From NCBI GenBank assembly GCA_900215285.1, contig OCMG01000004.1, positions 1 through 64,000 of the forward strand: a DNA stretch of 64,000 nt, written 5' to 3'. Shown here piece by piece: positions 23,921 to 44,483 of this stretch (the first letter of the stretch is position 1; each line of letters begins with the position of its first letter). Both the position numbers and the translations under genes were made by a program. This DNA comes from Ensifer adhaerens. GTDB lineage: Bacteria > Pseudomonadota > Alphaproteobacteria > Rhizobiales > Rhizobiaceae. Under the pieces are notes generated by a model, which did no database searches, had not been told where the DNA came from, and worked only from the letters and a program-made list of their open reading frames with translations.

Positions 23921-23942
23921 CATGCCTGCCAAGGCATACATG
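23921..23942 (+). promoter_or_regulatory. Late-promoter palindrome 1 (lysis/packaging unit)
   Basis: This 22-bp site has arms CATGCCTGCC and GGCATACATG around 2 nt. It starts 2 nt after the mor stop and ends 48 nt before the endolysin. A -10-like TACTTT stands about 24 nt downstream. It is the most degenerate of the four copies (one arm mismatch). Confidence 0.75.
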
Positions 23943-23990
23943 ACGCGCACGCCGTCGCATTGACTACTTTGCTCCGAAACGGAGCAAATC

Positions 23991-24821
23991 ATGTCCCAAC
24001 TCTCCCTCAAGATCACCCCGGCCGTGCTGATGCAGATCGGCGGCGTCAAGAACGCCGCCGCTATCCACAACACGACCGCGCTCTGCAGCGGGCTTGCTGC
24101 CCTCCTTGACCAGTGGGCCATCAATACGCCGCTGCGACTGGCGCATTTCACGTCACAGTGCGCCCATGAGAGCGACGGCTTCAACACCCTCACCGAATAT
24201 GCCTCCGGCGCTGCCTATGAAGGCCGCACGGATCTCGGCAACTTCATGTCGGGCGATGGGAAGCGGTTCAAGGGCCGTGGCTGCATTCAGGTCACCGGCC
24301 GCGCGAACTATCGGGCGTTCACTGTCTGGGTTCGCGAACATGGATATCCGGATGCGCCGGACTTCGAAAAGTCGCCGGAGATGCTCGTCGAGGCGCCCTG
24401 GGCCGCGATGTCCGCGATCTGGTATTGGACCTCCCATGATCTCAACACGCTTGCGGACGCCGACAACCTGGTTGCGGTGATGCGTTGTATCAACGGCGGT
24501 ACCAACGGCCTTTCCGATCGGGCGGCCAAGCTTGCCCGCGCCAAGTCCATCATCATCCCGCTCGCTGCCGATACGATCGCAGACCAGCAATGGGGCCTGC
24601 TGGTCCTGCATCGTGGCATGAAAGGCGACGAGATTGCCCACCTTCAGGGCGACCTCGCGCAGCTCGGTTTCCATCATGGCGCGATTGATGGTGACTTCGG
24701 CCCTGCAACGGAAGCCTCCGTCATTGCCTTCCAGAAGGCAAAGGGGCTCACCGTAGACGGGATCGCGGGCGGCAAGACACTAGCCGCAATCCTTTCCGCC
24801 AAGTCCGGAGGCAAGGCCTGA
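23991..24821 (+). CDS. Endolysin, GH19-like with peptidoglycan-binding domain
   Basis: This 276-aa lysin has an N-terminal glycoside hydrolase 19-type domain with catalytic-type Glu60 (QCAHESDGF) and Glu69 (LTEYASGAAYEGR), plus GRGCIQVTGRANYRAF. A C-terminal peptidoglycan-binding domain spans about residues 209-270 (GDEIAHLQGDLAQLGF, then IDGDFGPATEASVIAFQ). It cuts the cell-wall glycan for lysis. No signal peptide is seen, so it needs a holin. Confidence 0.9.
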   Translation: MSQLSLKITPAVLMQIGGVKNAAAIHNTTALCSGLAALLDQWAINTPLRLAHFTSQCAHESDGFNTLTEYASGAAYEGRTDLGNFMSGDGKRFKGRGCIQVTGRANYRAFTVWVREHGYPDAPDFEKSPEMLVEAPWAAMSAIWYWTSHDLNTLADADNLVAVMRCINGGTNGLSDRAAKLARAKSIIIPLAADTIADQQWGLLVLHRGMKGDEIAHLQGDLAQLGFHHGAIDGDFGPATEASVIAFQKAKGLTVDGIAGGKTLAAILSAKSGGKA

Positions 24822-25111
24822 TGGAAAAGCCGCGCTACTCCACATCCAAAGCCGCCCTCTGGCTTTCCTCCGCCTGCGCCTGGCTCGTGATCTTCGTCCT
24901 GGCCGCCGGCGCTGCCATCTTCAAATCCGAACAGGCGGTCGCCTTCGGCAACATTACCGTGCCGTCCATGGTCGGCTTGATCCTGGGCATCCTCGGAATT
25001 CATCGCATCGGCGGTTCGTTCGATATGCGCAACGCGCTGAAATACGCCCGTGACCAGCCGGCGAGCGGCTCCAGTAATAACGCCGCAACGGATGGGACCG
25101 CGTCGCCATGA
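24821..25111 (+). CDS. Probable holin or lysis membrane protein
   Basis: This 96-aa protein has two predicted membrane helices (ALWLSSACAWLVIFVLAAGA and VPSMVGLILGILGIHRIG) and a hydrophilic tail. It lies between the endolysin and the spanin genes, the usual holin position. No specific holin family is matched. Confidence 0.65.
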   Translation: MEKPRYSTSKAALWLSSACAWLVIFVLAAGAAIFKSEQAVAFGNITVPSMVGLILGILGIHRIGGSFDMRNALKYARDQPASGSSNNAATDGTASP

Positions 25112-25494
25112 CCAGCTTTTTCGCTGACCTTCCCGGAAAGGCCGCCGCAGCCGCTCTCATTTTCCTCCTTGCCGCCGGGCTCTGCGTGGCGGCAGGCGCG
25201 GTCGCCCTCCAAGCCAGCCAGAACTTCAAGGACGTGACGGCCGAAGCGGTCGCCTCCGCCAAGGCCGAGCGTGACGCCTATTGGAAAGGCGAGATCGCCA
25301 GGAGCAACGAGGAAGCCGCAAATCAGAAAGCCATCCAGGCCGAGAGCGCCATGCGTCTTGAGGCGCTCACCAGCTCGAAGATCCGCGATGCGGAAGCCCA
25401 ACAGAAAACTACGGAGAATGCAAATGCGGCCCTGCCGTCTGTTAGCGGTTGCGGCCTGCGCCGCGATCGTGTCCGCGTGCTCAACGCACAGTGA
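25108..25494 (+). CDS. Inner-membrane spanin (Rz-like)
   Basis: This 128-aa protein has one N-terminal membrane helix (AAAALIFLLAAGLCVAAGAV) and a long periplasmic helix (AKAERDAYWKGEIARSNEEA). It fits the i-spanin that fuses the membranes at lysis. The overlapping Rz1-like gene in another frame confirms the pair. Confidence 0.75.
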   Translation: MTSFFADLPGKAAAAALIFLLAAGLCVAAGAVALQASQNFKDVTAEAVASAKAERDAYWKGEIARSNEEAANQKAIQAESAMRLEALTSSKIRDAEAQQKTTENANAALPSVSGCGLRRDRVRVLNAQ

Positions 25495-25699
25495 GGCGCC
25501 CGTCGTCAGGACGGTCGCCATCCGGCCCGTCCTGCCGCCATCGTCGAAAATCCCTTGCGCGGATCCGGCCATGTTGCCGGATCGCGACTTGTCCGATCTG
25601 GAAACGGGCCAGCTTTGGTCTCGTGACCGATCGAACCTGCGCACCTGCGAGCAGCGCAGGGCGGCGGCCGTCCTGGCCGCCGAAGGAGCCGCAAAATGA
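25424..25699 (+). CDS. Outer-membrane spanin lipoprotein (Rz1-like)
   Basis: This 91-aa protein starts within the Rz gene in another frame. The signal MRPCRLLAVAACAAIVSAC ends in a lipobox (VSAC), and a proline-containing mature part follows. The ATG at 25424 has GGAG 7 nt upstream and is preferred to the ATG at 25418. Embedded Rz1 genes are the rule for two-component spanins. At 91 aa it is longer than most Rz1 proteins. Confidence 0.75.
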   Translation: MRPCRLLAVAACAAIVSACSTHSEAPVVRTVAIRPVLPPSSKIPCADPAMLPDRDLSDLETGQLWSRDRSNLRTCEQRRAAAVLAAEGAAK

Positions 25700-25917
25700 T
25701 GGAGCGTTGCGACGAGATCGAGCGCGCAGCGCACTATGTCGAGGCCGAGACCGCCCGCACGATCGCCGAGGCGCGCGCCGCACTTGGTGCGTCCGGAACG
25801 GCTGAGTGCATTGATTGCGGCCGCGAGATTGAACCGAAGCGCCGCGCCGTCCATCCGGCCGCGCGCCGCTGTGTCGAATGCCAGAGCCTGATCGAGGCGG
25901 AGAAGTATCACAGATGA
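25696..25917 (+). CDS. TraR/DksA-type zinc-finger protein
   Basis: This 73-aa protein has four cysteines (Cys38, 41, 59, 62: ECIDCG and RCVEC) in the C4 zinc finger of TraR/DksA proteins. TraR-like proteins bind the RNA polymerase secondary channel. It overlaps the spanin gene by 4 nt. Similar small genes occur in this spot in many Mu- and P2-like phages. Confidence 0.75.
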   Translation: MMERCDEIERAAHYVEAETARTIAEARAALGASGTAECIDCGREIEPKRRAVHPAARRCVECQSLIEAEKYHR

Positions 25918-26249
25918 TTTTCGATGTTACCGCGATCGGCGTTCTGATCTCTCTCCTGATGAACAGCGTCAACCTGGGCATTGTCGTCAAGAACATGCTT
26001 TCCGCCGGGGAGAAAAAGCTCGAAGAGCGCCTGGTGAAAGCGGAGACCAAGATGGTCGAATACGACCGGCGCATCCAATCGCTTGAGGGAGAGCTGAAGC
26101 ACCTTCCAGACAGAGACGCCGCCCATCGGCTGGAACTGGCGATCGAGAAGATGAACGGGCGACTCGATACGATGGCCGAGGCGCTGAAGCCGGTGGCGAG
26201 CACCAATCAACGTTTGCAGGAATTCCTATTGGAGCAGGGTCAGAAATGA
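25914..26249 (+). CDS. DUF2730 family protein (Mu gp25-like)
   Basis: This 111-aa protein has one N-terminal membrane helix (IGVLISLLMNSVNLGIVVKN) and a long coiled coil. It matches the DUF2730 family found before the packaging genes of Mu-like phages. The role is unknown. Confidence 0.75.
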   Translation: MIFDVTAIGVLISLLMNSVNLGIVVKNMLSAGEKKLEERLVKAETKMVEYDRRIQSLEGELKHLPDRDAAHRLELAIEKMNGRLDTMAEALKPVASTNQRLQEFLLEQGQK

Positions 26250-26572
26250 ACAAACTCGGCATAGATTTCGCGGAGAAGTTCCGCCAGGACGCCCGCCTCA
26301 TCATTCTGAAGGCGCTCGCCGAGCAGAGCAACGATACGCTGGCCAGCAACGTCCTTCAGGACACAGTGCTCCCGATTTTCGGGATCAAGCAGGACCGGCC
26401 TTGGGTCCATCTGCAGCTTGACTATCTTGCCAATCTCGGCGCGGTGAGCTTGGTCACCGCCGGCACCGTCAAGATCGCGACTCTGACCAAGCTGGGCGCG
26501 CGTCATCTCGACAGAGGGACGGGCGTAGCACTTCCCGGCGTCACACGTCCGTCCATGGCCGGAGAAGAATAA
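26246..26572 (+). CDS. Mu gp26-like phage protein
   Basis: This 108-aa protein (DARLIILKALAEQSNDTLAS, then HLQLDYLANLGAVSL) resembles the gp26/VpaChn25_0724 family, with a winged-helix look. It lies directly upstream of the terminase genes as in Mu and may take part in packaging control. Confidence 0.75.
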   Translation: MNKLGIDFAEKFRQDARLIILKALAEQSNDTLASNVLQDTVLPIFGIKQDRPWVHLQLDYLANLGAVSLVTAGTVKIATLTKLGARHLDRGTGVALPGVTRPSMAGEE

Positions 26573-27207
26573 TGGCCAAGGGACGCGGTCGCCTGACTGC
26601 CATCGATCTGCTGCCGGAAGAATGTGAAGAGGTCATCACCTGGGCATCGGGCGAACTGGCGGCACGCGAGCGGACGCAGGTGGACATCTACGGCGAGTTC
26701 AAGCGCAAGCTGATCGCTGTCCAGGGCGAGACCGGCGCGAGCTTCGACATCCCGTCCTTCTCCGCCTTCAACCGCTATTCGCTGCGACTCTCGGTTCTGT
26801 CGCGCCGGCTCGAACAGACGCGAGAGATCGCCGCCACCTTGTCCGAACGCTTTGATGCGACCGGCTCCGACGATCTGACGCTCATCGCCGCCGAGGCCAT
26901 CAAGACCCTGATCCTGGAGACATTGCAGATGTCGGGTGAAGGCAAGCTCTCGCCGAAGGGCGCGATGGAACTTGCCAACGCGCTGCGCGCTGCCTCGGCC
27001 GCCCAGGTCACGAGCTCGAATCGCCGGCTGAAGCTGGAAGCGGAGGAAAAGGCCCGCCGCGTCGAGGCCGACATGAAGGCGAAGGCAGAGGCGGCCCTGG
27101 ACCATCTGGCCTCCGAGCCAGGCATTTCGCGCGAAGCCATTGCCCGCGCCCGTCGCGAGTTCCTGGGCGTCCGGCCGAAGAAGAAGGCCGAGCCGAGCGA
27201 TGGTTGA
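26572..27207 (+). CDS. Terminase small subunit, DUF3486 (Mu gp27)
   Basis: This 211-aa protein has the DUF3486 pattern: RGRLTAIDLLPEECEEVITW, then RTQVDIYGEFKRKL and FSAFNRYSLRL. These proteins recognise packaging sites for headful packaging with the large subunit. It overlaps the terminase large gene by 8 nt. Confidence 0.88.
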   Translation: MAKGRGRLTAIDLLPEECEEVITWASGELAARERTQVDIYGEFKRKLIAVQGETGASFDIPSFSAFNRYSLRLSVLSRRLEQTREIAATLSERFDATGSDDLTLIAAEAIKTLILETLQMSGEGKLSPKGAMELANALRAASAAQVTSSNRRLKLEAEEKARRVEADMKAKAEAALDHLASEPGISREAIARARREFLGVRPKKKAEPSDG

Positions 27208-28867
27208 TTTCACGAAAACCGAGTGGACGGACCCGCCCGTCCTCGGACGCGATCCGGAGGACCTGCCGGAGGAATTGCCGCGTGGTGGCGAAATTCCGGA
27301 AGATCTCGATCCTCTGGCCGAAGGCGTTCTCATGGAACACCAGGCCGAATGGATCGCCGACGAAAGCGACCTGAAGGTTTGTGCCAAAGGTCGCCGAACA
27401 GGCATCACGTTCGCCGAGGCGCTGGACTGCACGCTCATAGCAGCCGCGAAGCGTTCCGCCGGCGGCCAGAACGTCTTCTATATTCCAGACACCAAGCCGA
27501 AGGGTCGAGAGTTCATCGGCTATGCCGCGCATTTCGCCAAGATCGTTTCGAAGGAATTGCTGAAGATCGAGGACGGCATCTTTTTCGATCAGCGGGCCGA
27601 CGGCACAACAAAAGCGATCTCCAGCTACATCATCCGGTTTGCATCCGGCTTTCGCATCGAAGCCCTTTCCTCCCGGCCGGAAAACATCCGCGGTCTCCAG
27701 GGCACGGTTGTCATCGACGAGGCCGCGTTCCACAGTGACGTGCGCGAGGTGATCGACGCTGTCGGTGCGCTTCTCATCTGGGGCGGCAAGATCCGCATCA
27801 TCTCGTCGCATAATGGCCTTTCGAGCCCCTTCAACGAACTGATCAAGGAAGCCGAGGCCAAGAAAAACGGCTTCAAGGTCCATACCTATTCCTTCGGCGA
27901 TGCTGTCCGTAACGGGCTCTATAAGCGCGTCTGCCTGATCAAGGGCGAGGAATGGACGGCTGAAGCCGAAGCGGCCTGGGAAGCAAAGATACGCTCGGCC
28001 TACGGCACGCGCACAGCCAAGATGCGCCAGGAGCTCGATGCGATTCCGGCCGAGACCGAAGGTGCTGCCCTCACCCGCGTGCTGATCGAGAGCTGCATGA
28101 GTCGGGATCTTCCGCCGGTCATTCGTTGGGACCGACCGGACGAATTCAAAAGCCTGTCGGATTTCGAGCGCGAAGCCCAGGCTGAAGAATTCTGTGAAGG
28201 CATGTTGAGGCCTCTTTTAGAGCGCCTCGACAAGCGACGGGAGCATTGCTTCGGCGAGGACTTCGCCCGCTCCGGTGACAAGACCGCGATCATCGTCTTC
28301 GAGATCGGCCAGGATCTCATCCGCCGCGCCCGACTGACAGTCGAGCTGAAGAACATTCCCTTCGATCAGCAGCGTGACATTCTCTTTTACATCGGGGATC
28401 GGCTGCCTCGCATGACGGGCGGCGCTCTCGATGCGCGTGGCAACGGACAATACCTTGCCGAAAAGGCGCGCCAGCGCTGGGGTGGTGGCATCCACGAAGT
28501 GATGCTGTCGGCGAAATGGTATGCGCTCAACATGCCTGCCTATATCGAGGCCTTCACCGACAAGAGCCTGCTTCTTCCGTTCGACGCGGATGTTCTCGCC
28601 GATCATCAGGCTCTCGCCTACGTCAATGGCATCATCAAGGTGCCGGACGAATACTCGTCGAAGGGTGCGGACGGTTACGACCGCCACGGCGACACGGCGC
28701 CGGCGGGTGCACTGGCATGGTTTGCCAGCATGCAGGACGTCTTTGACTACGCCTATGAGGCCGTCACTCGCGACCCGATGAAAGGTCACAATGGCGGGCC
28801 GCCGCTCGAACACGCTGAGGATCGGCCCGGCCAGTCAATCAACATTTTCCTGAGAGGATCAATCTGA
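27200..28867 (+). CDS. Terminase large subunit (Mu gp28)
   Basis: This 555-aa protein has a Walker A-like KGRRTGIT (63-70), Walker B VVIDEAA (170-176) and a nuclease-domain motif GEDFARSGDKTA with Asp354. It pumps DNA into the procapsid and cuts it. The ATG at 27200 is chosen over a longer frame that lies inside the small-subunit gene. Confidence 0.92.
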   Translation: MVDFTKTEWTDPPVLGRDPEDLPEELPRGGEIPEDLDPLAEGVLMEHQAEWIADESDLKVCAKGRRTGITFAEALDCTLIAAAKRSAGGQNVFYIPDTKPKGREFIGYAAHFAKIVSKELLKIEDGIFFDQRADGTTKAISSYIIRFASGFRIEALSSRPENIRGLQGTVVIDEAAFHSDVREVIDAVGALLIWGGKIRIISSHNGLSSPFNELIKEAEAKKNGFKVHTYSFGDAVRNGLYKRVCLIKGEEWTAEAEAAWEAKIRSAYGTRTAKMRQELDAIPAETEGAALTRVLIESCMSRDLPPVIRWDRPDEFKSLSDFEREAQAEEFCEGMLRPLLERLDKRREHCFGEDFARSGDKTAIIVFEIGQDLIRRARLTVELKNIPFDQQRDILFYIGDRLPRMTGGALDARGNGQYLAEKARQRWGGGIHEVMLSAKWYALNMPAYIEAFTDKSLLLPFDADVLADHQALAYVNGIIKVPDEYSSKGADGYDRHGDTAPAGALAWFASMQDVFDYAYEAVTRDPMKGHNGGPPLEHAEDRPGQSINIFLRGSI

Positions 28868-30468
28868 TGGCGTCAATCAAGGATTGGCTCGGCCGAGCCA
28901 TCAACATGCTGTCTCTCACAACGCCGATCGCCACGGCGGACGCAGGGGCACAGCGTCCGTGGATCTCCGGAAACCCCGCCGACGGCCTGACGCCGCAGCG
29001 CCTCGCAAGGATTCTGCGCTCGGCAGATCTTGGCGATCCGCTCGCCTATTTCGAGCTGGCCGAAGACATCGAGGAACGCGACGCGCATTACCTGTCGGTT
29101 CTGGCCACGCGCCGGCGCTCGGTGGCGCAGCTGCCGATCACGGTCAAGGCCGGCTCGGACGATGCCGCGCACAAGAAGCATGCCGAGTTCGTTCAGTCCT
29201 GGATCGACGACGGCATTCTTCGGGCATCGCTGTTCGACATGCTCGATGCGATCGGCAAGGGCCTGTCCGTGATGGAGGTCGATTGGGCCTATCAGACAGG
29301 CGGGATGTTGCCGCAGGAACTGATTTACCGGACCCCGCGCTGGTTTACCTTCGACCGCAATGATGGCGAAACGGTTCTTCTTCGCGAAGGCGTCGGCGGC
29401 GTCCCGCTTCCTCCCCACAAGTTCGTCGTCCACCGCCACAAGTCGAAGTCGGGTCTGACGATCAGATCGGGCATCGCGCGGGTCGCGCTGTGGGCCTGGA
29501 TGTTCAAATCCTTCACACAGAAGGACTGGGCAATCTTCTGCCAGAATTTCGGTCAGCCGATCCGCATCGGCCGCTATGGCCGTGGCGCGAGCGAAGAGGA
29601 AAAGGAAGTGCTTCGTCGCGCCGTCTTCGGCATTGCAGGCGATTGCGCTGCAATCTTGCCGGAACGCATGGGCATCGAGCTTGTCGAAGTTGCCTCGAAG
29701 GGAGCATCGACCGATCTGTTCGAACGACGCGCCGACTGGTACGACCGCCAGACATCCAAGATCGTGCTCGGCCAGACAACGACCACTGATGCGGTCTCGG
29801 GCGGGCATGCGGTCAGCCGCGAGCATCGTCTCGTCCAGGAGGACATCGAGCGCGACGACGCCGGCGTCTTGACGACGACGATCAACAAGCAGCTCATCCG
29901 CAACATCGTCGCCTTTAACTTCGGGCCGCAGGAACGTTACCCACATGTCCAGATCGGCCGGCCGGATGAAGTGCCGCTAATCGATTTTGCCAAGGCGTTC
30001 TCGCTGCTGGCCGCCCAGGGACTGACAGCGGAAGAGAGTTTCATCCGTGATCGAATGGGCATTCCGACGCCTGGTGCGAACGCGGTGTTGATCGGAGGTC
30101 GCAAGACTGGAGGCAGCGCGGCTGCCGATCCGGCGCCAAGCGACAACACCGCCGACACCACCGGGCAGACCGCGCTGCAGATGACCTTCGACAATCTGTT
30201 CAAGTCGGCTCATTCGGTTCAGAAGAAGGACACGGCCGAGATCCTCGCCGACAGGCTGGAACAGGATGCGGCCTCAGCGCTCGACGGCATGATCGACGAG
30301 GTGCGGCTTGCCCTGATGCATGCGACGGATCTTCGGGATGCTGCAGAGCGCCTGGCACGTCTCCAGCTCGCCCCCGATGCGCTGGCCGAAGCGATGGCAA
30401 GAGGCATGGCGCTTGCGCACCTGGCAGGACAAGCCGCGCTCATCGACGACATCAAGAGAGCAAGATGA
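28867..30468 (+). CDS. Portal protein, DUF935 (Mu gp29)
   Basis: This 533-aa protein has the DUF935 signature (DPLAYFELAEDIEERDAHYL, EVDWAYQTGGMLPQELIYR, FGQPIRIGRYGRGASEEEKE). The portal dodecamer forms the DNA channel of the head. Its ATG overlaps the preceding terminase stop as ATGATG/TGATG, and it is coupled to the F gene by a 4-nt overlap. Confidence 0.93.
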   Translation: MASIKDWLGRAINMLSLTTPIATADAGAQRPWISGNPADGLTPQRLARILRSADLGDPLAYFELAEDIEERDAHYLSVLATRRRSVAQLPITVKAGSDDAAHKKHAEFVQSWIDDGILRASLFDMLDAIGKGLSVMEVDWAYQTGGMLPQELIYRTPRWFTFDRNDGETVLLREGVGGVPLPPHKFVVHRHKSKSGLTIRSGIARVALWAWMFKSFTQKDWAIFCQNFGQPIRIGRYGRGASEEEKEVLRRAVFGIAGDCAAILPERMGIELVEVASKGASTDLFERRADWYDRQTSKIVLGQTTTTDAVSGGHAVSREHRLVQEDIERDDAGVLTTTINKQLIRNIVAFNFGPQERYPHVQIGRPDEVPLIDFAKAFSLLAAQGLTAEESFIRDRMGIPTPGANAVLIGGRKTGGSAAADPAPSDNTADTTGQTALQMTFDNLFKSAHSVQKKDTAEILADRLEQDAASALDGMIDEVRLALMHATDLRDAAERLARLQLAPDALAEAMARGMALAHLAGQAALIDDIKRAR

Positions 30469-31676: not shown

Positions 31677-31745
31677 CGCGCCGGGGGGCCGGAAATCGCC
31701 TGGTCCCAATCACCCTGAAGGATGTGCTTCCTGCTCGGCGCGTCA
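31674..31745 (+). ncRNA. Candidate structured RNA between F and G
   Basis: TGACGCGCCG (31674-31683, including the F stop codon) is perfectly complementary to CGGCGCGTCA (31736-31745). Within the 52-nt interior GGGGCC can pair with GGTCCC, and GAAG with CTTC, giving a three-way-junction shape of 72 nt. It fills the only large gap in this operon; the remaining 38 nt lead to the GTG start of G. No T-run follows, so it is not a standard terminator. Confidence 0.45.
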
Positions 31746-31783
31746 CGACAACAATATAGGCCAGCAAGGCCGGAAAGGCAAAT

Positions 31784-32287
31784 GTGAGCGGCGTTTCGAT
31801 CTCGGTGACAGTCGTTGACGCTCAGGTTCGCAGAGGCTTCGATCAGCTGGCGGTCCACATGGGTAACACGCAGCCCGTCATGGCCGCAATCGGCACGGCG
31901 GTGGTGTCATCTACCCATATGCGCTTCGTCACGCAGACTGATCCAGATGGAATGGCCTGGCGCGCGCTGAACACCGAGTACGCAAAGGACAAACGCAATA
32001 CCCGCATCCTGACCGAAAGCGGCAGGCTTCGGGACAGCATCTCAGACCGAGCTGGCCGAGACGAGGTTACGATCGGGACCAATTTGATTTACGCGGCCAT
32101 CCACCAGTTGGGCGGCACAATAGTGCCAGTCAGAGCAACGCACTTGGTATTCCGGATCGGCGGTCATCTCGTCCAGGTCCTCAGTGTCACCTTGCCCGCG
32201 CGGCCATTCCTCGGTATATCCGAGCAGGACGAAGCCGAGATCGCGGAAATCGTGTTTGCCTTCGTCGATCGCTACATTCCCCGCTGA
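31784..32287 (+). CDS. Virion morphogenesis protein G (Mu gpG-like)
   Basis: This 167-aa protein matches the phage virion morphogenesis/tail completion family: MRFVTQTDPDGMAWRALNTE, YAKDKRNTRILTESGRLRDS, YAAIHQLGGTIVP, ARPFLGISEQDEAEI. It acts in head-tail joining. The GTG at 31784 is the only start that fits; the overlapping ATG at 31782 is closed at once by TGA. Confidence 0.88.
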   Translation: MSGVSISVTVVDAQVRRGFDQLAVHMGNTQPVMAAIGTAVVSSTHMRFVTQTDPDGMAWRALNTEYAKDKRNTRILTESGRLRDSISDRAGRDEVTIGTNLIYAAIHQLGGTIVPVRATHLVFRIGGHLVQVLSVTLPARPFLGISEQDEAEIAEIVFAFVDRYIPR

Positions 32288-32292: not shown

Positions 32293-32314
32293 CATGCCTG
32301 CCGTGGCAGACATG
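32293..32314 (+). promoter_or_regulatory. Late-promoter palindrome 2 (head/tail-tube unit)
   Basis: This 22-bp site has arms CATGCCTGCC and GGCAGACATG around GT. It begins 5 nt after the G stop and ends 33 nt before the protease gene. A -10-like CAGTTT follows at the same spacing as in the other copies. Confidence 0.8.
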
Positions 32315-32347
32315 ATATGAGATCGGGCCGCATGGCAGTTTGCCGCC

Positions 32348-33391
32348 ATGCGAAAGAACATCAATTCCCTGATCATTGCCCTGCACGCAGCCGAAAACGG
32401 CGGCGTTCCGGAGTGGCTGAACCTGCTCCCGGCCACGTCGTTCGAAGGCGTGGACGGTCGCGGTCCTTATGCTGCCCCCAACATCCCGGCATTGATCGCG
32501 CTCTTCCAGCGTGAGGGCGTAAAGCTTCCGATCGACGAGAACCACGCCATCGACCTGGCCGGCAAGGCCGGCATGCCGTCGCCGGCACGCGGCTGGATCG
32601 TCGATATGCAGGCACGCGCCGATGGCCTTTGGGGCAGGGTCGAATGGACCGCCGCCGGCGAGGCAATGGTTGCCGGCAAGGACTACGGCTACATCTCGCC
32701 GGTGTTCACGCATTCCGAGAGCTCGCCCTACGTCATCGGCAAGATACTGCGCGTTGCTCTGACCAACGATCCCAATCTCAAATTCCTCAAATCTCTTCAC
32801 TCGAACCAGGAGACTGAAATGCTCGAAGAGCTCCGGAAGGCTTTAGGCCTTCCCGAGACGGCGACGGAGGCCGATGTCCTCAACGCCGTCAAATCCGCCC
32901 ATCAGGCCAATGCTGCCAATGTCGCGTTGATGGCCCGCGTTCGCGAAGCGGCCGGCGTTCCCGCCACGGCCGACGAAACCGTTCTCGTGACAGCACTCCA
33001 GTCTCGCGGCAAGGCGACGGCCGCCGAGGCCGAGGTTGCCGAGCTTAAGGGGCAGGTTGTCTCTCTCCAGACCACCCTCAGCCAGTTCACGAAAAACGCC
33101 GCCGCCGAGAAGGCGACCGCCTTCATCGAGGGCGCGCTGAAGGAAGGCAAGATCGTCCCGGCGCAGCGCGACTCGATGATCGCCTGGCACCAGCGCGATC
33201 CGCAGGCCGCCGAGGACTTCATCAAGAACCAGCCCGCCCTGAACGCCGGCGGCCTGGGCGGCAAGAAGCCGGCCGGCGAAGGCGAGAACGTCCGTTCGAC
33301 CGAGGACGACGCGGTGCTCGCCCAGATGGGTCTCGACCCCACGGCCTTCGAAACCCAGAAGAAGGCCCTTCATTCGAAAGGACTGATCTGA
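32348..33391 (+). CDS. I: Head maturation protease with scaffold tail (Mu gpI)
   Basis: The N-terminal half of this 347-aa protein matches the Mu I / U35-type head protease (PIDENHAIDLAG, then PARGWIVDMQARADGLWGRV, YGYISPVFTHS). The C-terminal half is a helical scaffold ending in a capsid-contact region (TAFETQKKALHSKGL). It matures the procapsid by cutting the scaffold. It is the first gene after late palindrome 2. Confidence 0.88.
   Translation: MRKNINSLIIALHAAENGGVPEWLNLLPATSFEGVDGRGPYAAPNIPALIALFQREGVKLPIDENHAIDLAGKAGMPSPARGWIVDMQARADGLWGRVEWTAAGEAMVAGKDYGYISPVFTHSESSPYVIGKILRVALTNDPNLKFLKSLHSNQETEMLEELRKALGLPETATEADVLNAVKSAHQANAANVALMARVREAAGVPATADETVLVTALQSRGKATAAEAEVAELKGQVVSLQTTLSQFTKNAAAEKATAFIEGALKEGKIVPAQRDSMIAWHQRDPQAAEDFIKNQPALNAGGLGGKKPAGEGENVRSTEDDAVLAQMGLDPTAFETQKKALHSKGLI
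32819..33391 (+). CDS. Z: Nested scaffold protein (Mu gpZ-like), same frame as the protease
   Basis: ATG at 32819 begins MLEELRKALGLPETATEADV in the protease frame and is preceded by CAGGAG with 7-nt spacing, a stronger site than that of the protease itself. The 190-aa product would be the scaffold alone, as Mu makes gpZ from within gpI. Coiled-coil content is high (about residues 75-110). Confidence 0.65.
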   Translation: MLEELRKALGLPETATEADVLNAVKSAHQANAANVALMARVREAAGVPATADETVLVTALQSRGKATAAEAEVAELKGQVVSLQTTLSQFTKNAAAEKATAFIEGALKEGKIVPAQRDSMIAWHQRDPQAAEDFIKNQPALNAGGLGGKKPAGEGENVRSTEDDAVLAQMGLDPTAFETQKKALHSKGLI

Positions 33392-33392
33392 C

Positions 33393-36574: not shown

Positions 36575-36577
36575 TCC

Positions 36578-38074: not shown

Positions 38075-38091
38075 GAAAGGGGTAGCAACAT

Positions 38092-38457
38092 ATGGCACAG
38101 ACAGTCGGCATCATCGATATCGTCTGGAACGGACGATACATGGCCTGCAAGAAGGGCTCCAGCGCCCGGCTCGGGGGCATCAAGAACAACGCCGTGACAC
38201 ACGGCCGCAAAGTCAGCCGCGCCCAGGAATATCAGGGCTCGGAAATCAAGGCCAAGGTCCCCTTTGAACGCGGCCAGAAGCTTGCCGACGTCTGGACCGA
38301 GGGCGAAGGTGAACTGCAGGTGCGCCTCGACACCGGACAGACCTATGTCCTCAGCGACGCGTTTCTGTCTGGCGACCGCCCGACCATCACCGAAGGCGAC
38401 GGCGGCGATATCGACCTTGTCTGGTCAGGTGGCACGCCTGAAGAGGTGATCGCATGA
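38092..38457 (+). CDS. M: Tail tube protein (Mu gpM)
   Basis: This 121-aa protein (GIIDIVWNGRYMACKKGSSA, then NNAVTHGRKVSRAQEYQGSE) matches the Mu-like tail tube family. It forms the inner tube. It overlaps the tail assembly gene by 4 nt. Confidence 0.92.
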   Translation: MAQTVGIIDIVWNGRYMACKKGSSARLGGIKNNAVTHGRKVSRAQEYQGSEIKAKVPFERGQKLADVWTEGEGELQVRLDTGQTYVLSDAFLSGDRPTITEGDGGDIDLVWSGGTPEEVIA

Positions 38458-38936
38458 CCGGCGCGATCAACAAGGGCACACGGGTCAAGATCGACCTGGA
38501 CGAAGACGCCGGCGGCGCGCCGGCTGAACTCGGTGAAGCATCGAGCGGCGACATCATCGAACATGATGGCAAGGCGGACATCATTGATGCGGACGGAGAC
38601 CCGCGCGACAAGCTGCCTGATCGCGCCCGCAAGAACGCCGACGGCTCCGTTACCCTACCGTTGCTCTATCCGCAGACCTTGACCCTCCGCAAGGATGGCA
38701 AGGTGAAAGAAGAAAACTACGCCGAGCTGAGATTCTACCGCCTTCGCGGTGAAGATCAGATGGCGATGGCAAACACGTCTGAAGACAAGCAGGTCGTGGT
38801 AGCCTTTGCCCGCTCGACACGCACACGCGAAATGGTGATGGAAGCATTGTTCAAGAAAATGGACTTGGCTGACATCGCTGACGGTGGTCGGGTGCTCAAC
38901 CATTTTTTGACGAGTGGCCCGACGACTGGCCGGTAA
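38454..38936 (+). CDS. Tail assembly chaperone (Mu gp41-like), unshifted product
   Basis: This 160-aa protein matches the Mu-like tail assembly (gp41) family (TLPLLYPQTLTLRKDGKVKE, then REMVMEALFKKMDLADIADG). It assists tape-measure packing before tube growth. Near its end lies the slippery heptamer T TTT TTG at 38903-38909, where ribosomes can shift by -1 into the longer product. Confidence 0.88.
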   Translation: MTGAINKGTRVKIDLDEDAGGAPAELGEASSGDIIEHDGKADIIDADGDPRDKLPDRARKNADGSVTLPLLYPQTLTLRKDGKVKEENYAELRFYRLRGEDQMAMANTSEDKQVVVAFARSTRTREMVMEALFKKMDLADIADGGRVLNHFLTSGPTTGR

Positions 38937-39067
38937 TCCTCGGCGGCATCGCCGAGGGAACTGGATTTTCTGCTGCCGAGATTGAAAGCTTTACCTTCGA
39001 TCGGGCGAACTTCTGGTGGAACGCTATCATGGCGTTCCGCAAATTGGTGAATGAAAAAGATGAGTAG
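38454..39067 (+). CDS. Tail assembly chaperone, -1 frameshift fusion product
   Basis: After TTG at 38907-38909 a -1 shift reads GAC GAG TGG and continues for 52 codons (DEWPDDWPVILGGIAEG, FSFDR-like ESFTFDRANFWWNAIM, AFRKLVNEKDE) to the TAG at 39065-39067, giving a 204-aa fusion. The tail is tryptophan-rich, like other G-T or E-E' chaperone extensions. The extended frame ends 3 nt before late palindrome 3, which supports its being real. No own start codon precedes it. Confidence 0.78.
38903..38909 (+). other. Programmed -1 frameshift slippery site
   Basis: T TTT TTG fits the X XXY YYZ rule in the zero frame of the gp41-like gene, and the same heptamer is used by the P2 E/E' tail chaperone genes. 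Downstream pairing was not computed. Confidence 0.75.
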
Positions 39068-39070
39068 ACC

Positions 39071-39092
39071 CATGTCTGCCACGGCAGACATG
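39071..39092 (+). promoter_or_regulatory. Late-promoter palindrome 3 (tape measure/baseplate unit)
   Basis: This 22-bp site has arms CATGTCTGCC and GGCAGACATG around AC. The arms are exact reverse complements, so this is the cleanest of the four copies. It lies 3 nt after the frameshift-frame stop and 54 nt before the tape measure. A (GC)n tract and GATAG follow at 39099-39116. Confidence 0.82.
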
Positions 39093-39146
39093 GGCTTCAG
39101 TGCGCGCGCGCGATAGTTTTCGCCATCCCAGGGGCGCGCAGCAATC

Positions 39147-41507
39147 ATGTCAAATCGCAATATGCAGCTGGACGTGATCGTCCGTCTCAAGGATCTCCTC
39201 AGCGGACCTTTGAGAGGTCTTCGAGGCGCGCTCGAAGGCGTCGCGAACATGGCCAAGAAGATTGGCCTGGTAGGCGTTGCGGTCGCCGGGATTTCCTTCA
39301 TGGGTCCGATCCATGAAGCGGCGGCCTTCCAGCAGAAGCTGCTCGATATTGCCGGAACCTCGCAGTTGTCGGGCAAAGCCGCCTTCGAATATGTGGACAA
39401 GGCGAAAGGCCAGTTCGAAGGCTTAGCGCTTAAATACGGGCAGTTTTCGGAGACGATTGCAGAAGGTGCCGGCAAGATGATTGCTGCCGGCGTCGCTGAA
39501 GACGTCGTCAACGCCTCGATGGGGAGCATCGCGAAGGCGACCAAGGCGGCCAATGCCTCCTTCGATGATATGTCTGGCGTCGCCATCTCGCTCGTCCAGA
39601 CCCTCAAAGTGCCGGCCTCGCAGCTCGATGACATCTTCGCTGCCCTGATCGTCGCCGGCAAGGAAGGCTCGTTCGAGCTGAAGGATATGGCGCGTTACTT
39701 CCCGACATTGACGGGACAGATGGCGAAGCTTGGTATCACCGGCAAGGAAGCGGCAGTGCAGTTGGCGTCGATGCTGGAAATCGCTCGCAAAGGCACGGCC
39801 GAACCGGCGGAAGCGGCCAACAACCTCAACAACTTCCTGTCGAAGATAACGTCTCCGGAGACCATCAAGAATTTCAAGAAGATGAATGTGGACATCGTCG
39901 GCGTCATGCAGGACGCCGCGACGAAAGGCATTAACCCGATCGAGGCCGTGATCCAGAAGATCAGCAAATTGGCGGGCGTGTCGGGCAAGGAAATCAACGG
40001 AATGATGAAGAAGGCCAAGGCGGCGGGCATGACGGACGCCGAAGCCTTGGAAGACACGCGGAAGAAGCTGATCGCGATCCACGGCTCAGCCGCACTCGGC
40101 GGTCTCTTCTCCGACATGCAGGTCATGGGCTTCCTTATCCCGATGCTGGCCAACATCGAAGAGTACAAACGGATCAAGGAGGAGGTTGGGAAGGCCACCG
40201 GAGCCATGTCCGACAAGGACTTCGAAACCCAGATGGCGGGTCTCAACACCCAGCTGATGATGTTCAATGAAATCGGCACCCAGGCGATGCGTGAGGTCGG
40301 CTTCGCCTTCGGCACCTGGCTTCCGCAGATCAACGAGAACCTCCAGGCGGCGCTCGGTTGGGTCCGCGAGCTGGATAAAAGTAGCGGCGGCATGGTCAAG
40401 CAGTTCCTTGCCTGGGCCGGCGCCGGTGTTCTTGTCGCCGGCGCATTGGGCGTCCTGGGTGTGATCCTGCCCGTCATCGGAGCTGGTCTTTCACTCCTGG
40501 CGAGCCCGGCCGCCCTCGTCATCGGTGGGTTGGCAGCCGCCGGCGTCTGGCTCTTCCGCAACTGGAGCACTTACGGGCCTCGCATCATGGCCCTATGGAA
40601 CAGGCTGAAGACCGGATTGGTCGACCTGGGCAACGCCACATTAGATTACGGGCGCAAGGCTTACGCCACTGTCCGGGATCTCGCGACGCGATATGGTCCC
40701 ATGATCGCGGACGGTCTCGGCAACGCCTGGACGAAGGCCATCAACGGGCTTCGGGCGGGCTATCAGAGCGTCCGCGATTTCGGGGCCGGCTTCGCGATCA
40801 ATCTCCCGAAGATCAGCGGCAACATCGATGAGACGATCAGCGCGATCACGCGGATCGCCTCGGCATTCATGCGCCTGGCGCGGGCCGGAGCTGCGCTGCT
40901 CAACATCGATTTGCCGGCGACCGAGAACTTTTTCCGTGGGCTCGGCACCGTGTTTGGGGCGATGACCGCGGACCTGACGGGCGGAATAGCCAAAGTCGCT
41001 GACGTGATCGCCAGTGTAACGGAGGTCTTGGCAGATCTTGCTGAAGGCAAGCGGAAGCTGTCGGACATCGCCAACGAGCTTGATAAGACCTTCAACTTCT
41101 CAGGCTTCATCGCGGCTGCCCGACAAATCCCGACGCAGATGGTGGCGATCGGGTCCGAGATCATCCAGTCACTCTGGGATGGAATGAAGGCCAAGTTCGA
41201 TGAGGTCATTGCGTGGTTCTCGGGCCTCGGCCAGAGGATCAAGGATGCAATCGGCAGCATCAAGCTCGATATCCAAGTCCCGGAGATCTTCAAGAGGTTC
41301 GGGGGAATGTTCGGAACGGACAGCGAGCCACCGAAGCCCGCAAACAGCAACACGATCGCGCCGGCCCAAGCGCCGCCACAGCGTCTCGACGTGAAGGTGA
41401 ACTCGACGATCAAGGTCGATGGCCCCGGCAAGGTTGTCAGCGAAAACACTGAGGTCAAGAAGCCTTCCGGCCCGATCGACACCGGCCGCGTGCTCGGGAG
41501 AAACTGA
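39147..41507 (+). CDS. Tail tape measure protein
   Basis: This 786-aa protein is long, mostly helical and has hydrophobic central segments (LAWAGAGVLVAGALGVLGVI, then LPVIGAGLSLLASPAALVIG). It begins with a repeated phage tail tape pattern (LDVIVRLKDLLSGPLRGLRG, then SGKAAFEYVDKAKGQF). Its length sets the tail length and it may aid DNA entry. It is the first gene after late palindrome 3. Confidence 0.9.
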   Translation: MSNRNMQLDVIVRLKDLLSGPLRGLRGALEGVANMAKKIGLVGVAVAGISFMGPIHEAAAFQQKLLDIAGTSQLSGKAAFEYVDKAKGQFEGLALKYGQFSETIAEGAGKMIAAGVAEDVVNASMGSIAKATKAANASFDDMSGVAISLVQTLKVPASQLDDIFAALIVAGKEGSFELKDMARYFPTLTGQMAKLGITGKEAAVQLASMLEIARKGTAEPAEAANNLNNFLSKITSPETIKNFKKMNVDIVGVMQDAATKGINPIEAVIQKISKLAGVSGKEINGMMKKAKAAGMTDAEALEDTRKKLIAIHGSAALGGLFSDMQVMGFLIPMLANIEEYKRIKEEVGKATGAMSDKDFETQMAGLNTQLMMFNEIGTQAMREVGFAFGTWLPQINENLQAALGWVRELDKSSGGMVKQFLAWAGAGVLVAGALGVLGVILPVIGAGLSLLASPAALVIGGLAAAGVWLFRNWSTYGPRIMALWNRLKTGLVDLGNATLDYGRKAYATVRDLATRYGPMIADGLGNAWTKAINGLRAGYQSVRDFGAGFAINLPKISGNIDETISAITRIASAFMRLARAGAALLNIDLPATENFFRGLGTVFGAMTADLTGGIAKVADVIASVTEVLADLAEGKRKLSDIANELDKTFNFSGFIAAARQIPTQMVAIGSEIIQSLWDGMKAKFDEVIAWFSGLGQRIKDAIGSIKLDIQVPEIFKRFGGMFGTDSEPPKPANSNTIAPAQAPPQRLDVKVNSTIKVDGPGKVVSENTEVKKPSGPIDTGRVLGRN

Positions 41508-42745
41508 TGCGCATTGACGATCTCGACAGCGCCGAAGGGCTGCTTCCGGGGATGTATCGCGGGATTTCGCTGTCGATCGTCGATTCCGCAAGCGAGCATG
41601 GCCGACGCCTGGTCGAGTATCTTTTCCCCGGAGTGGACGCCGCAGCCTATGATGATTTTGGCGTGGCTCCGAGCGTCATCACCATAGAGGCGCTCTACAT
41701 CGCGGATGACTACAAGGCGGCAGCCGTGATGCTCGCGACGGCCTTCGAGACGGCCGGACCCGGCCTTCTCGTGCACCCATGGCTCGGCCCCATGTCCGTG
41801 ATGATGGAAGAGCCTGCCGAAATCAGGTTCTCCGAACGCGAACTCCGCGTCATCCGCGTGTCAGCCCGGTTCAAGCGCGCCCCGGTCGCCTCCTTCCAGT
41901 CGTCCTCCTCAGGCCTACTTTCCGCAGGCGTCCTGGGGCTCGTGAGTGCCGCCTCCGCCATTGCACTGGCGATCTCGTCGAGCGTCATTTCATCGGCCAA
42001 GACGTCAGCTGTGATCAGGAGCCGGCGGGTCGTGGCCGCAGCTGCGGCCTCGATCGCTTCGCCCAAGGATGCAAGGTCTGCTCTTTCGGCATTGCGCACG
42101 TCACTGGCCTCTTCGTCGCCGTCGGCACCTTTGAGCTTCGATGCATGGCTGATCGATGCAGCCGCTGTCGTCTCTCAGGTGCAGGAAATCCCGGCAGTCG
42201 CTCCCGTCTCCGAAGCCTCCGCGACACCGTCCGCCCAGGCCCTGATGACGATCGGGATCTCGCTCGTGAATAGGCTACTCGACCAGGCGCGTTCGGTGCC
42301 ATCGAATATCGATGGCCTTCTTCTGATCGAGGCGGCTGCGCATTTCATCGCCCAGGTCGCAGCGCAATCCGCCTATGCGGATTTCGCGTCTCGGCAGGAG
42401 GCGCTGTCGTTTCGATCCGGGATGACATCGGCGTTGAAGCAGCTGGTCGACCGGATCGAGGAGATCGGCACGGATCAGATGCAGGGGCCGGTGACCGATC
42501 TCGTGCGTGCCTCAACGTCGCTTTCGGCGAGCATCGTCTCGGACATCAACGAAATCATCGGCCGCCTTCCTAGCGTGCGGCGGATCCTGGCACCGCGAAA
42601 CGCCGACACCTTTGCGGTCGCCCAGCATCTCGCCGGCGACACGCCTTCGAAAATCGAGGCGGTCTATCTCGACCTCGTGACCCGCAACGATCCAGTGCAT
42701 CCCGCGCAACTGCCTGCCGGCTATATCGAGTTCCTGGAGTTCTGA
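41507..42745 (+). CDS. N: Mu gpN-like DNA circularisation/tail protein
   Basis: The N-terminal 125 residues of this 412-aa protein match the DNA_circ_N family (GISLSIVDSASEHGRRLVEY, LFPGVDAAAYDDFG, LVHPWLGPMSVMMEE). In Mu, N is injected and takes part in protecting incoming DNA and in tail assembly. The central part is serine- and alanine-rich. Confidence 0.86.
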   Translation: MRIDDLDSAEGLLPGMYRGISLSIVDSASEHGRRLVEYLFPGVDAAAYDDFGVAPSVITIEALYIADDYKAAAVMLATAFETAGPGLLVHPWLGPMSVMMEEPAEIRFSERELRVIRVSARFKRAPVASFQSSSSGLLSAGVLGLVSAASAIALAISSSVISSAKTSAVIRSRRVVAAAAASIASPKDARSALSALRTSLASSSPSAPLSFDAWLIDAAAVVSQVQEIPAVAPVSEASATPSAQALMTIGISLVNRLLDQARSVPSNIDGLLLIEAAAHFIAQVAAQSAYADFASRQEALSFRSGMTSALKQLVDRIEEIGTDQMQGPVTDLVRASTSLSASIVSDINEIIGRLPSVRRILAPRNADTFAVAQHLAGDTPSKIEAVYLDLVTRNDPVHPAQLPAGYIEFLEF

Positions 42746-42747
42746 TC

Positions 42748-43950
42748 ATGGCAAAAAGTCTTCAGCTCTATCTGGACGGTCAGCGCTATGATCAGTGGAC
42801 ATCGGGCGAAGTGACGCGCGATCTGAAGGACTTCTCCGGGTCTTTCAGTTTTACATTCCGCGATGGGCAGGCATCCTCGGCGGCGCTTGCATTCGCCAGC
42901 GTACCGATCCTGAAGCGGCTGAAGTCGCAGATGAAGGCGGTCATCAAGATCGGCAATCGAACCGTCCTGAAAGGTCATGTCGAAGAGGTCGACAAGGATC
43001 TCAGTGAAGGCCAGGCAACTGTCACGATTTCAGGGCGCGATAAGACTGGCGATCTGATCGACTCCGCAGCTCTTCCCGATGGTCAGCAGGCCGAATTGAA
43101 GAAGGTGAAGCTCGAAGCGGCTGCCAAGAAGATCGCAGCGCCGTTCGGGCTGACGGTGAAGGCAGATGTCGATACCGGTGATGTCTTTGATCGTTACGCC
43201 ATCGATCTCGGCGAAACCGCCTTCTCCGCGATCGAGAAGGGCACCCGTTCGCGCGGCGTCCTGGTCCTCTCCGATGGCATAGGCGGCATCGTCATCACGC
43301 GCGCTGGAACGACCCGCGCGCCGGCAGACCTCGAACAGCCCGGCAATGTTCTCAGATCGAGCGGCAAGGAGTCGACCACGCGGCGTTACTCCAAGACGAC
43401 GGTGCGCGGACAGTCGGAGCGGGCCGCAAAGGCGCGTGGAGCCGCCACGCTTGATGCAACCGCAGAACCTCTCGATGTCGGCTCAAGAACGGAGAGCACG
43501 AGCAGTTCGGCAACGGACAATGAACGCAAGGGCACGGTTGCCACAGGCATGGCAACGGATAGCGAGATCGAGCGCTATCGGCCTGCGGTTTACCTAGCGC
43601 GTAGCAAGGCCGACAAATCATCGGCCCAAAGCGAAGCGGACTGGAGATGCCGCACGGCCAAAGGCGAAGGCGAAGAACTGACCCACACGGTCAAGGGCCA
43701 TACCGTCAACGGCAGCCTCTGGACCGTCAACCAACTCGTGCATGTCTCGGATGCCTTTCTCGATGTCGAGCGCGACCAGCTGATTTCACGTACCCGTTAT
43801 GCCGAGGATCAGTCCGGAGCGACGACAGACATCACCAGCTGCAGGCCGGAGGCGTTCGATCCAAAGGCGAAAGGCAGCTCGGGCAACCAGCGCAGCCGGA
43901 AGTCAACGGCATCGTCAGGAGCGCTGGACAGCAAGGCGGAGCCCTTATGA
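42748..43950 (+). CDS. P: Baseplate hub protein (Mu gpP / late control D-like)
   Basis: This 400-aa protein (SGSFSFTFRDGQ, IKIGNRTVLKGHVEEVDKDL, TISGRDKTGDLIDSAALPDG, VSDAFLDVERDQLIS) matches the Mu P baseplate family, related to P2 gpD. It forms the hub at the tail base. A serine- and threonine-rich stretch (residues about 235-270) looks like a linker. Confidence 0.87.
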   Translation: MAKSLQLYLDGQRYDQWTSGEVTRDLKDFSGSFSFTFRDGQASSAALAFASVPILKRLKSQMKAVIKIGNRTVLKGHVEEVDKDLSEGQATVTISGRDKTGDLIDSAALPDGQQAELKKVKLEAAAKKIAAPFGLTVKADVDTGDVFDRYAIDLGETAFSAIEKGTRSRGVLVLSDGIGGIVITRAGTTRAPADLEQPGNVLRSSGKESTTRRYSKTTVRGQSERAAKARGAATLDATAEPLDVGSRTESTSSSATDNERKGTVATGMATDSEIERYRPAVYLARSKADKSSAQSEADWRCRTAKGEGEELTHTVKGHTVNGSLWTVNQLVHVSDAFLDVERDQLISRTRYAEDQSGATTDITSCRPEAFDPKAKGSSGNQRSRKSTASSGALDSKAEPL

Positions 43951-44459
43951 GCGAGGTGATGAACAAGCTCCGCGGCCTCATCCGGCGTGTCACCGTCAAG
44001 AACATCAAGGACGGTGGTCAGATGCAAACGGCTTCGGCCGAGGTGGCGGAGGGCATCTGGCGCGACGATGTAGAAATCTGGCATCCCTATGGCCTCGTCT
44101 CTGTGCCCGACGAGGATGGCGCTCTGGGAATCGCACTCTCAATCGGCGGAGACGAGGGCGACATGGCACTTCTGGCACTTTCCAACCCGTCGCAGCGAAT
44201 GGGCGGCCTCTTGAAGGGCGATGTCGGGCTTGCAAACAAGCACGGAGATCGCGTTTTGGTTCGCGCCTCTGGAGGCGTCGAAGTCAAGGCCGCGAACTCA
44301 TTCACCGCAAAGATAGGTGGCGTGACCTTCACCGTCACCTCGGCCGGCGTCGATATCGACGGCGGTTATCTGAAGAACAACGGGATCGATGTCGGCAGCA
44401 CCCATACGCACGGTGGCGTCGTCGAGGGCGACGACCAGAGCGATGTCCCGGTCGGCTAA
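43947..44459 (+). CDS. Baseplate spike protein (Mu gp45)
   Basis: This 170-aa protein has an OB-like N-terminus and a beta-helix end with the apex motif THTHGG (HxH), which in Mu gp45 coordinates iron at the spike tip used to puncture the outer membrane. It overlaps gene P by 4 nt and closes the third late unit. Confidence 0.9.
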   Translation: MSEVMNKLRGLIRRVTVKNIKDGGQMQTASAEVAEGIWRDDVEIWHPYGLVSVPDEDGALGIALSIGGDEGDMALLALSNPSQRMGGLLKGDVGLANKHGDRVLVRASGGVEVKAANSFTAKIGGVTFTVTSAGVDIDGGYLKNNGIDVGSTHTHGGVVEGDDQSDVPVG

Positions 44460-44461
44460 GA

Positions 44462-44483
44462 CATGCCTGCCGTGGCAGTCATG
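44462..44483 (+). promoter_or_regulatory. Late-promoter palindrome 4 (baseplate/fibre unit)
   Basis: This 22-bp site has arms CATGCCTGCC and GGCAGTCATG around GT. It starts 2 nt after the gp45-like stop and ends 34 nt before the gp46-like gene. It is followed, like copy 3, by a (GC)n tract and GATAG (44503-44507). Confidence 0.82.

Follow-up and report, generated by a model that had tools for sequence, protein, structure and literature searches.

Four palindromes preceding the late operons of a Mu-like prophage of Ensifer adhaerens are probably operators of its single Mor-type activator

Introduction

In bacteriophage Mu, transcription beyond the early genes depends on two activators, Mor and C. 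The published descriptions place Mor at the middle promoter Pm, which contains a dyad centred at -43.5 and a -10 element and has no -35 element (PMC4390567, PMC4287176). Mor opens Pm but not the late promoters; those are opened by C, which uses a related dyad in each of four promoters (PMC4287176). These are Plys, PI, PP and Pmom, in which the common dyad lies upstream of a weak -10 (PMC4461284, PMC4287176), and the late genes are described as being switched on after replication begins (PMC4461284). A different solution has been described for phage T4, in which the late transcription factors gp33 and gp55 carry C-terminal tails on linkers that bind the sliding clamp gp45 (PMC7892883, PMC2988020). 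The latter source reports that no other natural clamp-coupled transcription has been found and calls the restriction to T4-type phages puzzling.

Here we report on a 64,000-nucleotide stretch of Ensifer adhaerens DNA (assembly GCA_900215285.1, contig OCMG01000004.1, positions 1 to 64,000, in the following termed the window), which contains a Mu-like prophage. A reading made from the sequence alone had noticed four copies of a 22-bp palindrome at the starts of the late transcription units, and proposed that one Mor-like activator runs the late programme from a new recognition site. The analysis presented here suggests that the four palindromes are very probably operators of the one Mor-type activator of this phage, and that every late promoter has one of them as its upstream half.

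Results and discussion

The four palindromes share sequence and position

All four palindromes (Table 1) fit the pattern CATGYCTGCCNNGGCAKWCATG without mismatch, and the arms CATGYCTGCC and GGCAKWCATG are those originally described. If up to three mismatches are allowed, the window contains these four sites only, each matched on both strands (8 matches), compared with a mean of 0.05 in shuffled sequences. The looser form CATGNCTGCCNNGGCANNCATG has no further copy anywhere in the 5.19-Mb genome; many copies spread through the host genome, which the sequence-only reading had named as a finding that would speak against it, are thus not present. Dyad symmetry alone is frequent in the window, where 23 22-mers have at least 9 of 11 pairs, copies 2 to 4 included, and copy 1 is the weakest dyad with 8 of 11 pairs. 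The case for the palindromes is therefore built on their common sequence and their placing.

Each palindrome directly precedes an operon, namely the lysis, protease (gpI), tape-measure and gp46 operons. Copies 1 to 4 start 2, 5, 3 and 2 nucleotides past the previous stop codon and end 48, 33, 54 and 34 nucleotides before the next ATG, in agreement with the ranges given earlier (2-5 and 33-54 nucleotides). A stop codon precedes all four copies as claimed, but the one 3 nucleotides ahead of copy 3 belongs to an extension of the tail-assembly chaperone, probably reached by -1 frameshifting, and not to an open reading frame (ORF) started by ATG. The chaperone is encoded by the ORF 38454-38936, and the extension ending at 39067 (window 38454-39067 in total) would probably be made by a -1 frameshift at the slippery sequence CATTTTTTG at 38901.

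The geometry resembles that of Mu-type promoters

Exactly 19 nucleotides behind each palindrome stands a block beginning with GACTA, GGCAG, GATAG and GATAG, respectively. Its constant distance had been noted before, but the value given (20-24 nucleotides) was not correct. The blocks resemble -10 elements, with the aligned hexamer (Table 1) at offset 21. The distance from the dyad centre to this hexamer is 32.5 bp at all four sites; measured in the same way, it is 31.5 bp in Mu Pmom, and in Mu Plys the distance from ATAA to the -10 is equal to that of Pmom. With the start site predicted from this spacing, the dyads would be centred near -43.5 as in promoters of the Mu type. A scan of 23700-43600 called no sigma-70 promoter at copies 1 to 3; thus, no usable -35 element was found at these copies.

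Sites 3 and 4 contain in addition a tract of CG dinucleotides ahead of the -10. Across phages, it is present in 7 of 8 high-scoring sites at position 3 and in all 11 at position 4, compared with 1 of 19 and 0 of 28 at positions 1 and 2. Most relatives have retained the tract seen in the window at sites 3 and 4 (39103-39112 and 44492-44503).

The same palindrome is present in a separate prophage

Scanning species genomes with CATGNCTGCCNNGGCAGNCATG yielded 34 single-copy stretches, only one of which (locus L089) has Mu-like late genes. It belongs to Hyphomicrobiales isolate NORP147 (our handle G732, the same as G566), and the palindrome stands in a Mu-like prophage with gpG on one side and gpI on the other; the Mor of this prophage is 38% identical to that of the window. 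With up to two mismatches, the window palindrome occurs in this 2.8-Mb assembly at exactly three places, all of them late-promoter places: one lies ahead of gpI, one ahead of gp46, and one within the 3'-terminal part of the mor reading frame. The gpI and gp46 sites are followed at offset 21 by TAAACC and TAGGTT, respectively; site 3 was not found in the assembly, which is 66% complete. The palindrome also gave two single matches in viral contigs, without Mor or late-gene matches in the surrounding DNA examined.

Related phages have dyads at the same places

For a wider comparison, viral contigs were scanned for gpT (80 loci), and 45 records were used in a family profile search. Stretches were fetched for 43 of them (44 stretches), with L164/G689 and L211/G714 left out. 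Six fetched stretches had no Mor match; the weak match L294 was left out and the weak match L291 (E 0.02) was kept. The Mor gene beside each late region was located with an iterated profile. The set of 47 phages obtained comprises 37 viral phages, nine genome prophages and the window. Duplicates were not removed from it, and L166 and G017 share one Mor. At family level, a Mor match was found in 21 of 297 genomes, counting the genome of the window itself. Relatives named in the searches (Hyphomicrobiales, Jiella, Ahrensia, Azorhizobium) point to an alphaproteobacterium as host.

Comparing the sequence behind mor with the one before gpI, the best common dyad-like 20-mer was better than the best of 10 shuffles in 33 of the 47 phages. 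A loose model of the window-type dyad likewise fitted both places in 33 of 47, a few of them weakly; the two counts refer to different sets of phages. Weak rows kept in the dyad alignment are L217, L224, L229, G505, G662 and site 2 of G471. In 60 distinct sites placed by the dyad letters alone, TANNNT is found at offset 21 in 11 and at offset 22 in seven, and at most twice at any other offset (0-33). A looser -10 form stands at offset 21 in 28 of these sites, the next best being nine at offset 23, and site 4 of G481 has TATAAT at offset 21.

In many related Mu-like phages mor is thus followed by a dyad, and a matching one precedes gpI, the tape measure or gp46. The letters of the dyad vary between phages, agree within one phage, and the gene places are constant. 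In 33 gpT loci (L151-L183), CCGCCNNGGCGG was found 44 times and CTGCCNNGGCAG once, and these loci mostly have CCGCC where the window has CTGCC; the window itself contains three CTGCCNNGGCAG (copies 2 to 4) and no CCGCCNNGGCGG. Judged by its letters, the window site is a CTGCC variant of a mostly CCGCC dyad found in many related Mu-like phages. The recognition site does not stand isolated, and the CTGCC form itself recurs in one other prophage, the one described above. The motif search in related Mu-like prophages that had been suggested as a check therefore gave a positive answer. Quite different dyads occupy these places in remoter phages, for instance GTCCGATTTCGGAC in L219, L223 and L227, and in phage ThpS-P1 CAACT(T/A)GTTGCGCATG is common to the lysis and gpI places.

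Sites of one phage change together. Comparing site 1 with site 2 within each of 14 distinct phages gave agreement in 11.86 of the 14 core letters, and permuted pairs gave 10.98; 7 of 20,000 permutations reached the observed value. The corresponding figures for site 2 and site 4 are 12.27 and 11.24 (11 phages), with 25 of 20,000 reaching the former. The sites were picked by a score containing -10 and CATG terms, and TA counts from them were not used. Common ancestry inflates these permutation tests, so that the covariation shows sites moving together and not how they do so.

Some further repeats were observed beside the dyads. In G017, GAAAACCGGTTCCCACTTTTC is exactly repeated upstream of the late dyads, and a repeat of similar sequence follows mor in G392 and occurs there at two further places; these repeats form a second upstream element. 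A one-residue specificity code, in which an aromatic residue in the Mor motif GVxKL would correspond to CCT half-sites, was considered and rejected: G471, G723 and G728 have Y and CCTCC, the window has F and CTGCC, and G566 has E and also CTGCC.

One Mor gene was found in the prophage

The window Mor matches PF08765 with 33.6 bits (cut-off 24.9, on the 144-amino-acid ORF starting at 23484) and PHROG 836, late transcriptional activator, with E 3.4e-17. It was missed by a six-frame family search at E 0.01 and is therefore considered divergent. A profile of 41 Mor relatives gave a hit to the structure of Mu Mor (1rr7) at E 0.74. The matches listed by fold searches with Foldseek and VIA-align were helix-turn-helix (HTH) proteins, with no Mor among them, and neither tblastn of Mor in phages nor Mor scans of genome and viral contigs gave a useful match. 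The AlphaFold core is confident, the predicted local distance difference test (pLDDT) score exceeding 90 in most of residues 11-100.

As the sequence-only reading had stated, a single Mor/C-type gene was found: the 24-kb late region of the window contains one, and none of the fetched late regions contains more than one, so separate Mor and C genes were not found. A very divergent second activator in the prophage could be missed, since proteins of this clade are poorly captured by the Pfam profile. Searching the genome of the window with its Mor retrieved this protein and one 37% relative on another contig. The second Mor (L097, G000:C3 at about 628535-631270) lies directly behind a tape-measure homologue of 67.5% identity; no palindrome core CTGCCNNGGCAG was found nearby and it has no QxxLF tail. 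This locus is probably a remnant of another Mu-like prophage.

Comparison with Mu and named phages

The four sites would be served by one activator and place a common dyad upstream of a weak -10, as is described for C and the Mu late promoters. The lysis and gpI positions are identical to those of Mu; a scan of Mu found late-promoter words 64 and 66 nucleotides ahead of lys and I. In contrast to Mu, the arms are CATGYCTGCC and not TTAT/ATAA, sites 3 and 4 have the CG tract, no separate C gene was found, and units 3 and 4 begin at the tape measure and gp46 and not at the P and mom places. In the same scan, the best candidate for PP, identified by the word ATAACCCC, is located inside N, 388 nucleotides before P, and Pmom lies 62 nucleotides before com. 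Of the four Mu places lys, I, P and mom, the prophage thus shares those at lys and gpI only, and the starting points of units 3 and 4 are new. The gap before Mu gp42 (tape measure) had been considered as the position of PP; this was dropped, as the scan found no late-promoter-like site there.

Compared with Mu Mor and Pm, the activator is of the same family and the dyad would likewise take the place of the -35, but in the prophage all four late units seem to be opened by the one Mor itself. The phages RS1 and ThpS-P1 offer a further comparison: the window protein was matched to PHROG 836, and both phages, assessed with our own Mor profile, have a Mor orthologue before an endolysin/amidase gene, an element common to the lysis and gpI places (those covered by the comparison) and a QxxLF-type tail, whereas their dyads differ and the tail genes are annotated differently. 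In ThpS-P1 the orthologue is gene 033 (L342, 26254-26643; annotated as hypothetical), which matches with E 1.7e-32 and ends in QLSLF. The paper on this phage states that Mor is lacking (PMC5488378).

Proposed mechanism and alternative explanations

The order of early operon, mor and late promoters suggests a two-step programme, compared with the early-middle-late order of Mu. We propose that the early operon (MuA, MuB, GemA, mor) would yield Mor from its last gene and that a Mor dimer would bind each dyad. With the -10 hexamer taken to begin at -12, the dyad centre would lie about 44.5 bp ahead of the transcript start. Bound Mor would substitute for the -35 element and aid the host RNA polymerase at the weak -10 with its fixed spacing, and the lysis, head, tail and baseplate units would be started together. 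As Mor/C-type late promoters under one Mor, the sites are best read as a simplified, re-keyed relative of the Mor-to-C cascade of Mu. This is in line with the earlier proposal of one Mor-like activator for the late programme: the register to the -10 block is the same at all sites, the dyads of relatives lie at the same places and the genome has no match elsewhere.

Several observations weigh against this interpretation. In 14 of the 47 phages the window-type dyad model was not fitted at both places; the 14 left out of the dyad alignment include phages with other dyads. Among the shared repeats counted, some resemble terminators (L194, L196), some are a different repeat (L166, G017) and one is doubtful (G629). 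Site 3 was not found in several relatives. In G566, site 1 overlaps the coding sequence of mor and was for this reason missed by the automatic scan. At copies 1 and 2 the -10 blocks are poor. Finally, ParB is about as widespread as Mor.

The last point leads to the possibility that a different phage protein, for instance the ParB-like one encoded upstream of the transposase, uses the sites as operators at the heads of the operons, for segregation or repression. ParB sites are palindromic, and a search of 28 genomes or records found a relative of the ParB-like protein in 27; some whole-genome matches among these may be chromosomal ParB. The fixed spacing to the -10, the Mu-like geometry and the location of site 1 just past mor speak for Mor instead, as do RS1 and ThpS-P1, which have Mor together with a common element before lysis and gpI. 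We consider a ParB-type operator very improbable.

The palindromes might also be intrinsic terminators of the preceding operons, forming RNA hairpins just past the last stop codon. Every copy does start directly past a stop codon, copy 3 folds far better than shuffled sequences (z -4.9), and some remoter relatives have a hairpin with a T run at these places (L194 behind mor, L196 before gpI). However, there is no T run directly behind any copy, so the combination of G+C hairpin and T run was not found; the scan of 23700-43600 called no intrinsic terminator at copies 1 to 3, the dyad centre consists of two bases, and for copies 1, 2 and 4 the folding advantage over shuffled sequences is small or absent (z -0.5, -0.2 and -0.7). 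Furthermore, relatives retain the sequence including unpaired outer bases and the fixed distance to the -10, which a terminator would not need. Termination at these sites is thus very unlikely.

Least probable of all is that a host transcription factor or sigma factor reads the sites instead of Mor, for which nothing specific speaks beyond the host polymerase implied by the -10 blocks, while the host genome has no further copy of the site and the dyad letters differ between prophages in genomes of one bacterial family.

The C-terminal tail of Mor resembles clamp-binding motifs

An alignment of 41 Mor proteins revealed a variable linker followed by a conserved RQxxLF end. Bacterial clamp-binding motifs are described as QL(S/D)LF and Q-aliphatic-x-[LM][FL] (PMC9690074, PMC11139829). 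We counted such motifs in the last 35 residues of 57 Mor/C clusters (70% identity) and in shuffled tails. Qxx[LM][FL] is present in 46 clusters (shuffled mean 1.37, maximum 5), Qx[SDE][LM][FL] in 42 (0.26), the canonical Q[AVLIM]x[LM][FL] in 30 (0.41) and the exact QL[SD]LF in 10 (0.01); the remainder of the proteins contains these motifs 1, 1, 0 and 0 times. Some of the 11 clusters without Qxx[LM][FL] have near forms such as QLDFF, some have none. A wider set including database proteins has the strict motif in 51 of 87.

The window Mor has QMDLF at its very end, which fits the form Q-phi-x-[LM]-[FL]; the pLDDT of the last residues is about 54-62. In Mu, the corresponding sequences are QPSLL at the end of Mor and QPDLF in C, located six residues before the C-terminus; with P at position 2, both lie outside the canonical form. 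Among the 259 window ORFs of at least 100 amino acids, mor alone has the strict motif at its end, five of 939 plus-strand ORFs have it in 33 late regions, and in the Mu stretch a strict-type terminal motif is found in Mor, C and one ORF in the gp25 frame.

These counts raise the possibility, which we regard as doubtful at present, that Mor/C activators are tethered to the clamp: the dimer would sit on the palindrome and its QxxLF tail would grip the host beta sliding clamp on new DNA, so that late promoters would fire on replicating phage copies. Late transcription may then be coupled to replication as in T4. The likeness to gp33 and gp55 with clamp gp45 lies in a phage late-transcription factor with a C-terminal clamp-binding tail and a variable linker (PMC7892883, PMC2988020), whereas T4 has its own clamp and a sigma-like factor, and the DNA-bound activator of the prophage would use the host clamp. 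Among the papers matched in a literature search, none treats Mor and the sliding clamp together, subscription papers being outside its reach; among the matches listed by a search on clamp motifs, which was not aimed at Mor, there was no Mu paper. Against coupling to the clamp, Mu C is described as active in in vitro transcription assays in a source in which no mention of a clamp was noticed (PMC4461284); the clamp is therefore probably not strictly required for activation by C in Mu.

Organisation of the prophage

The gene order is MuA-type transposase, MuB, GemA, mor, endolysin, gp27, portal, F-like, gpI protease, gpT, sheath, tube, tape measure, DNA-circularisation protein, gpP, gp46, Baseplate J and gp48 (Table 1). 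No RNA family reached the gathering score in 23000-46000.

Table 1. Positions of the putative late promoters and associated genes in the window
Feature	Position	Strand	Basis
ParB-like gene, upstream of transposase	13673-14542		
MuA-type transposase	15206-17176		
MuB	17294-18325		
GemA	21027-21662		
mor, single late activator, 124 amino acids, HTH near C-terminus	23544..23918	+	Pfam PF08765, PHROG 836
mor, predicted recognition-helix codons (residues 97-104)	23832..23855	+	AlphaFold2 helix 97-104, alignment
mor, codons of C-terminal QMDLF tail, clamp-binding-like motif	23901..23915	+	alignment, motif counts
Palindrome copy 1, putative late promoter before lysis operon	23921..23942	.	motif scan
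-10-like block GACTACTT, aligned hexamer CTACTT at 23964	23962..23969	+	alignment of four copies
Endolysin, first gene of unit 1	23991..24821	+	Pfam/PHROG profile searches
Palindrome copy 2, before gpI protease	32293..32314	.	motif scan
-10-like block GGCAGTTT, aligned hexamer CAGTTT at 32336	32334..32341	+	alignment of four copies
Mu gpI-like protease/scaffold, first gene of unit 2	32348..33391	+	PF10123 E 1.6e-51
Palindrome copy 3, before tape measure, 10-bp arms fully complementary	39071..39092	.	motif scan
CG tract before -10 hexamer, site 3	39103..39112	+	sequence
-10-like block GATAGTTT, hexamer TAGTTT at 39114	39112..39119	+	alignment of four copies
Tape-measure protein, first gene of unit 3	39147..41507	+	profile searches, PHROG
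Palindrome copy 4, before gp46 baseplate gene	44462..44483	.	motif scan
CG tract before -10 hexamer, site 4	44492..44503	+	sequence
-10-like block GATAGCGT, hexamer TAGCGT at 44505	44503..44510	+	alignment of four copies
GP46-like baseplate wedge, first gene of unit 4	44518..44985	+	PF07409 E 1.2e-15

Conclusions

With this comparison, a motif seen in one phage becomes a testable rule: activator and operators would change their letters together, with place and spacing fixed. The related Mu-like phages thereby provide a natural series for how an activator changes its specificity. Because Mu Mor, Mu C and most relatives in the comparison share the tail, the question of clamp coupling becomes directly testable in a laboratory phage. 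If such coupling exists, it would be a second, independently built clamp-coupled late transcription beside that of T4, running through Mu itself, and Mor would re-key its DNA sites freely between lineages with the clamp tail staying in place.

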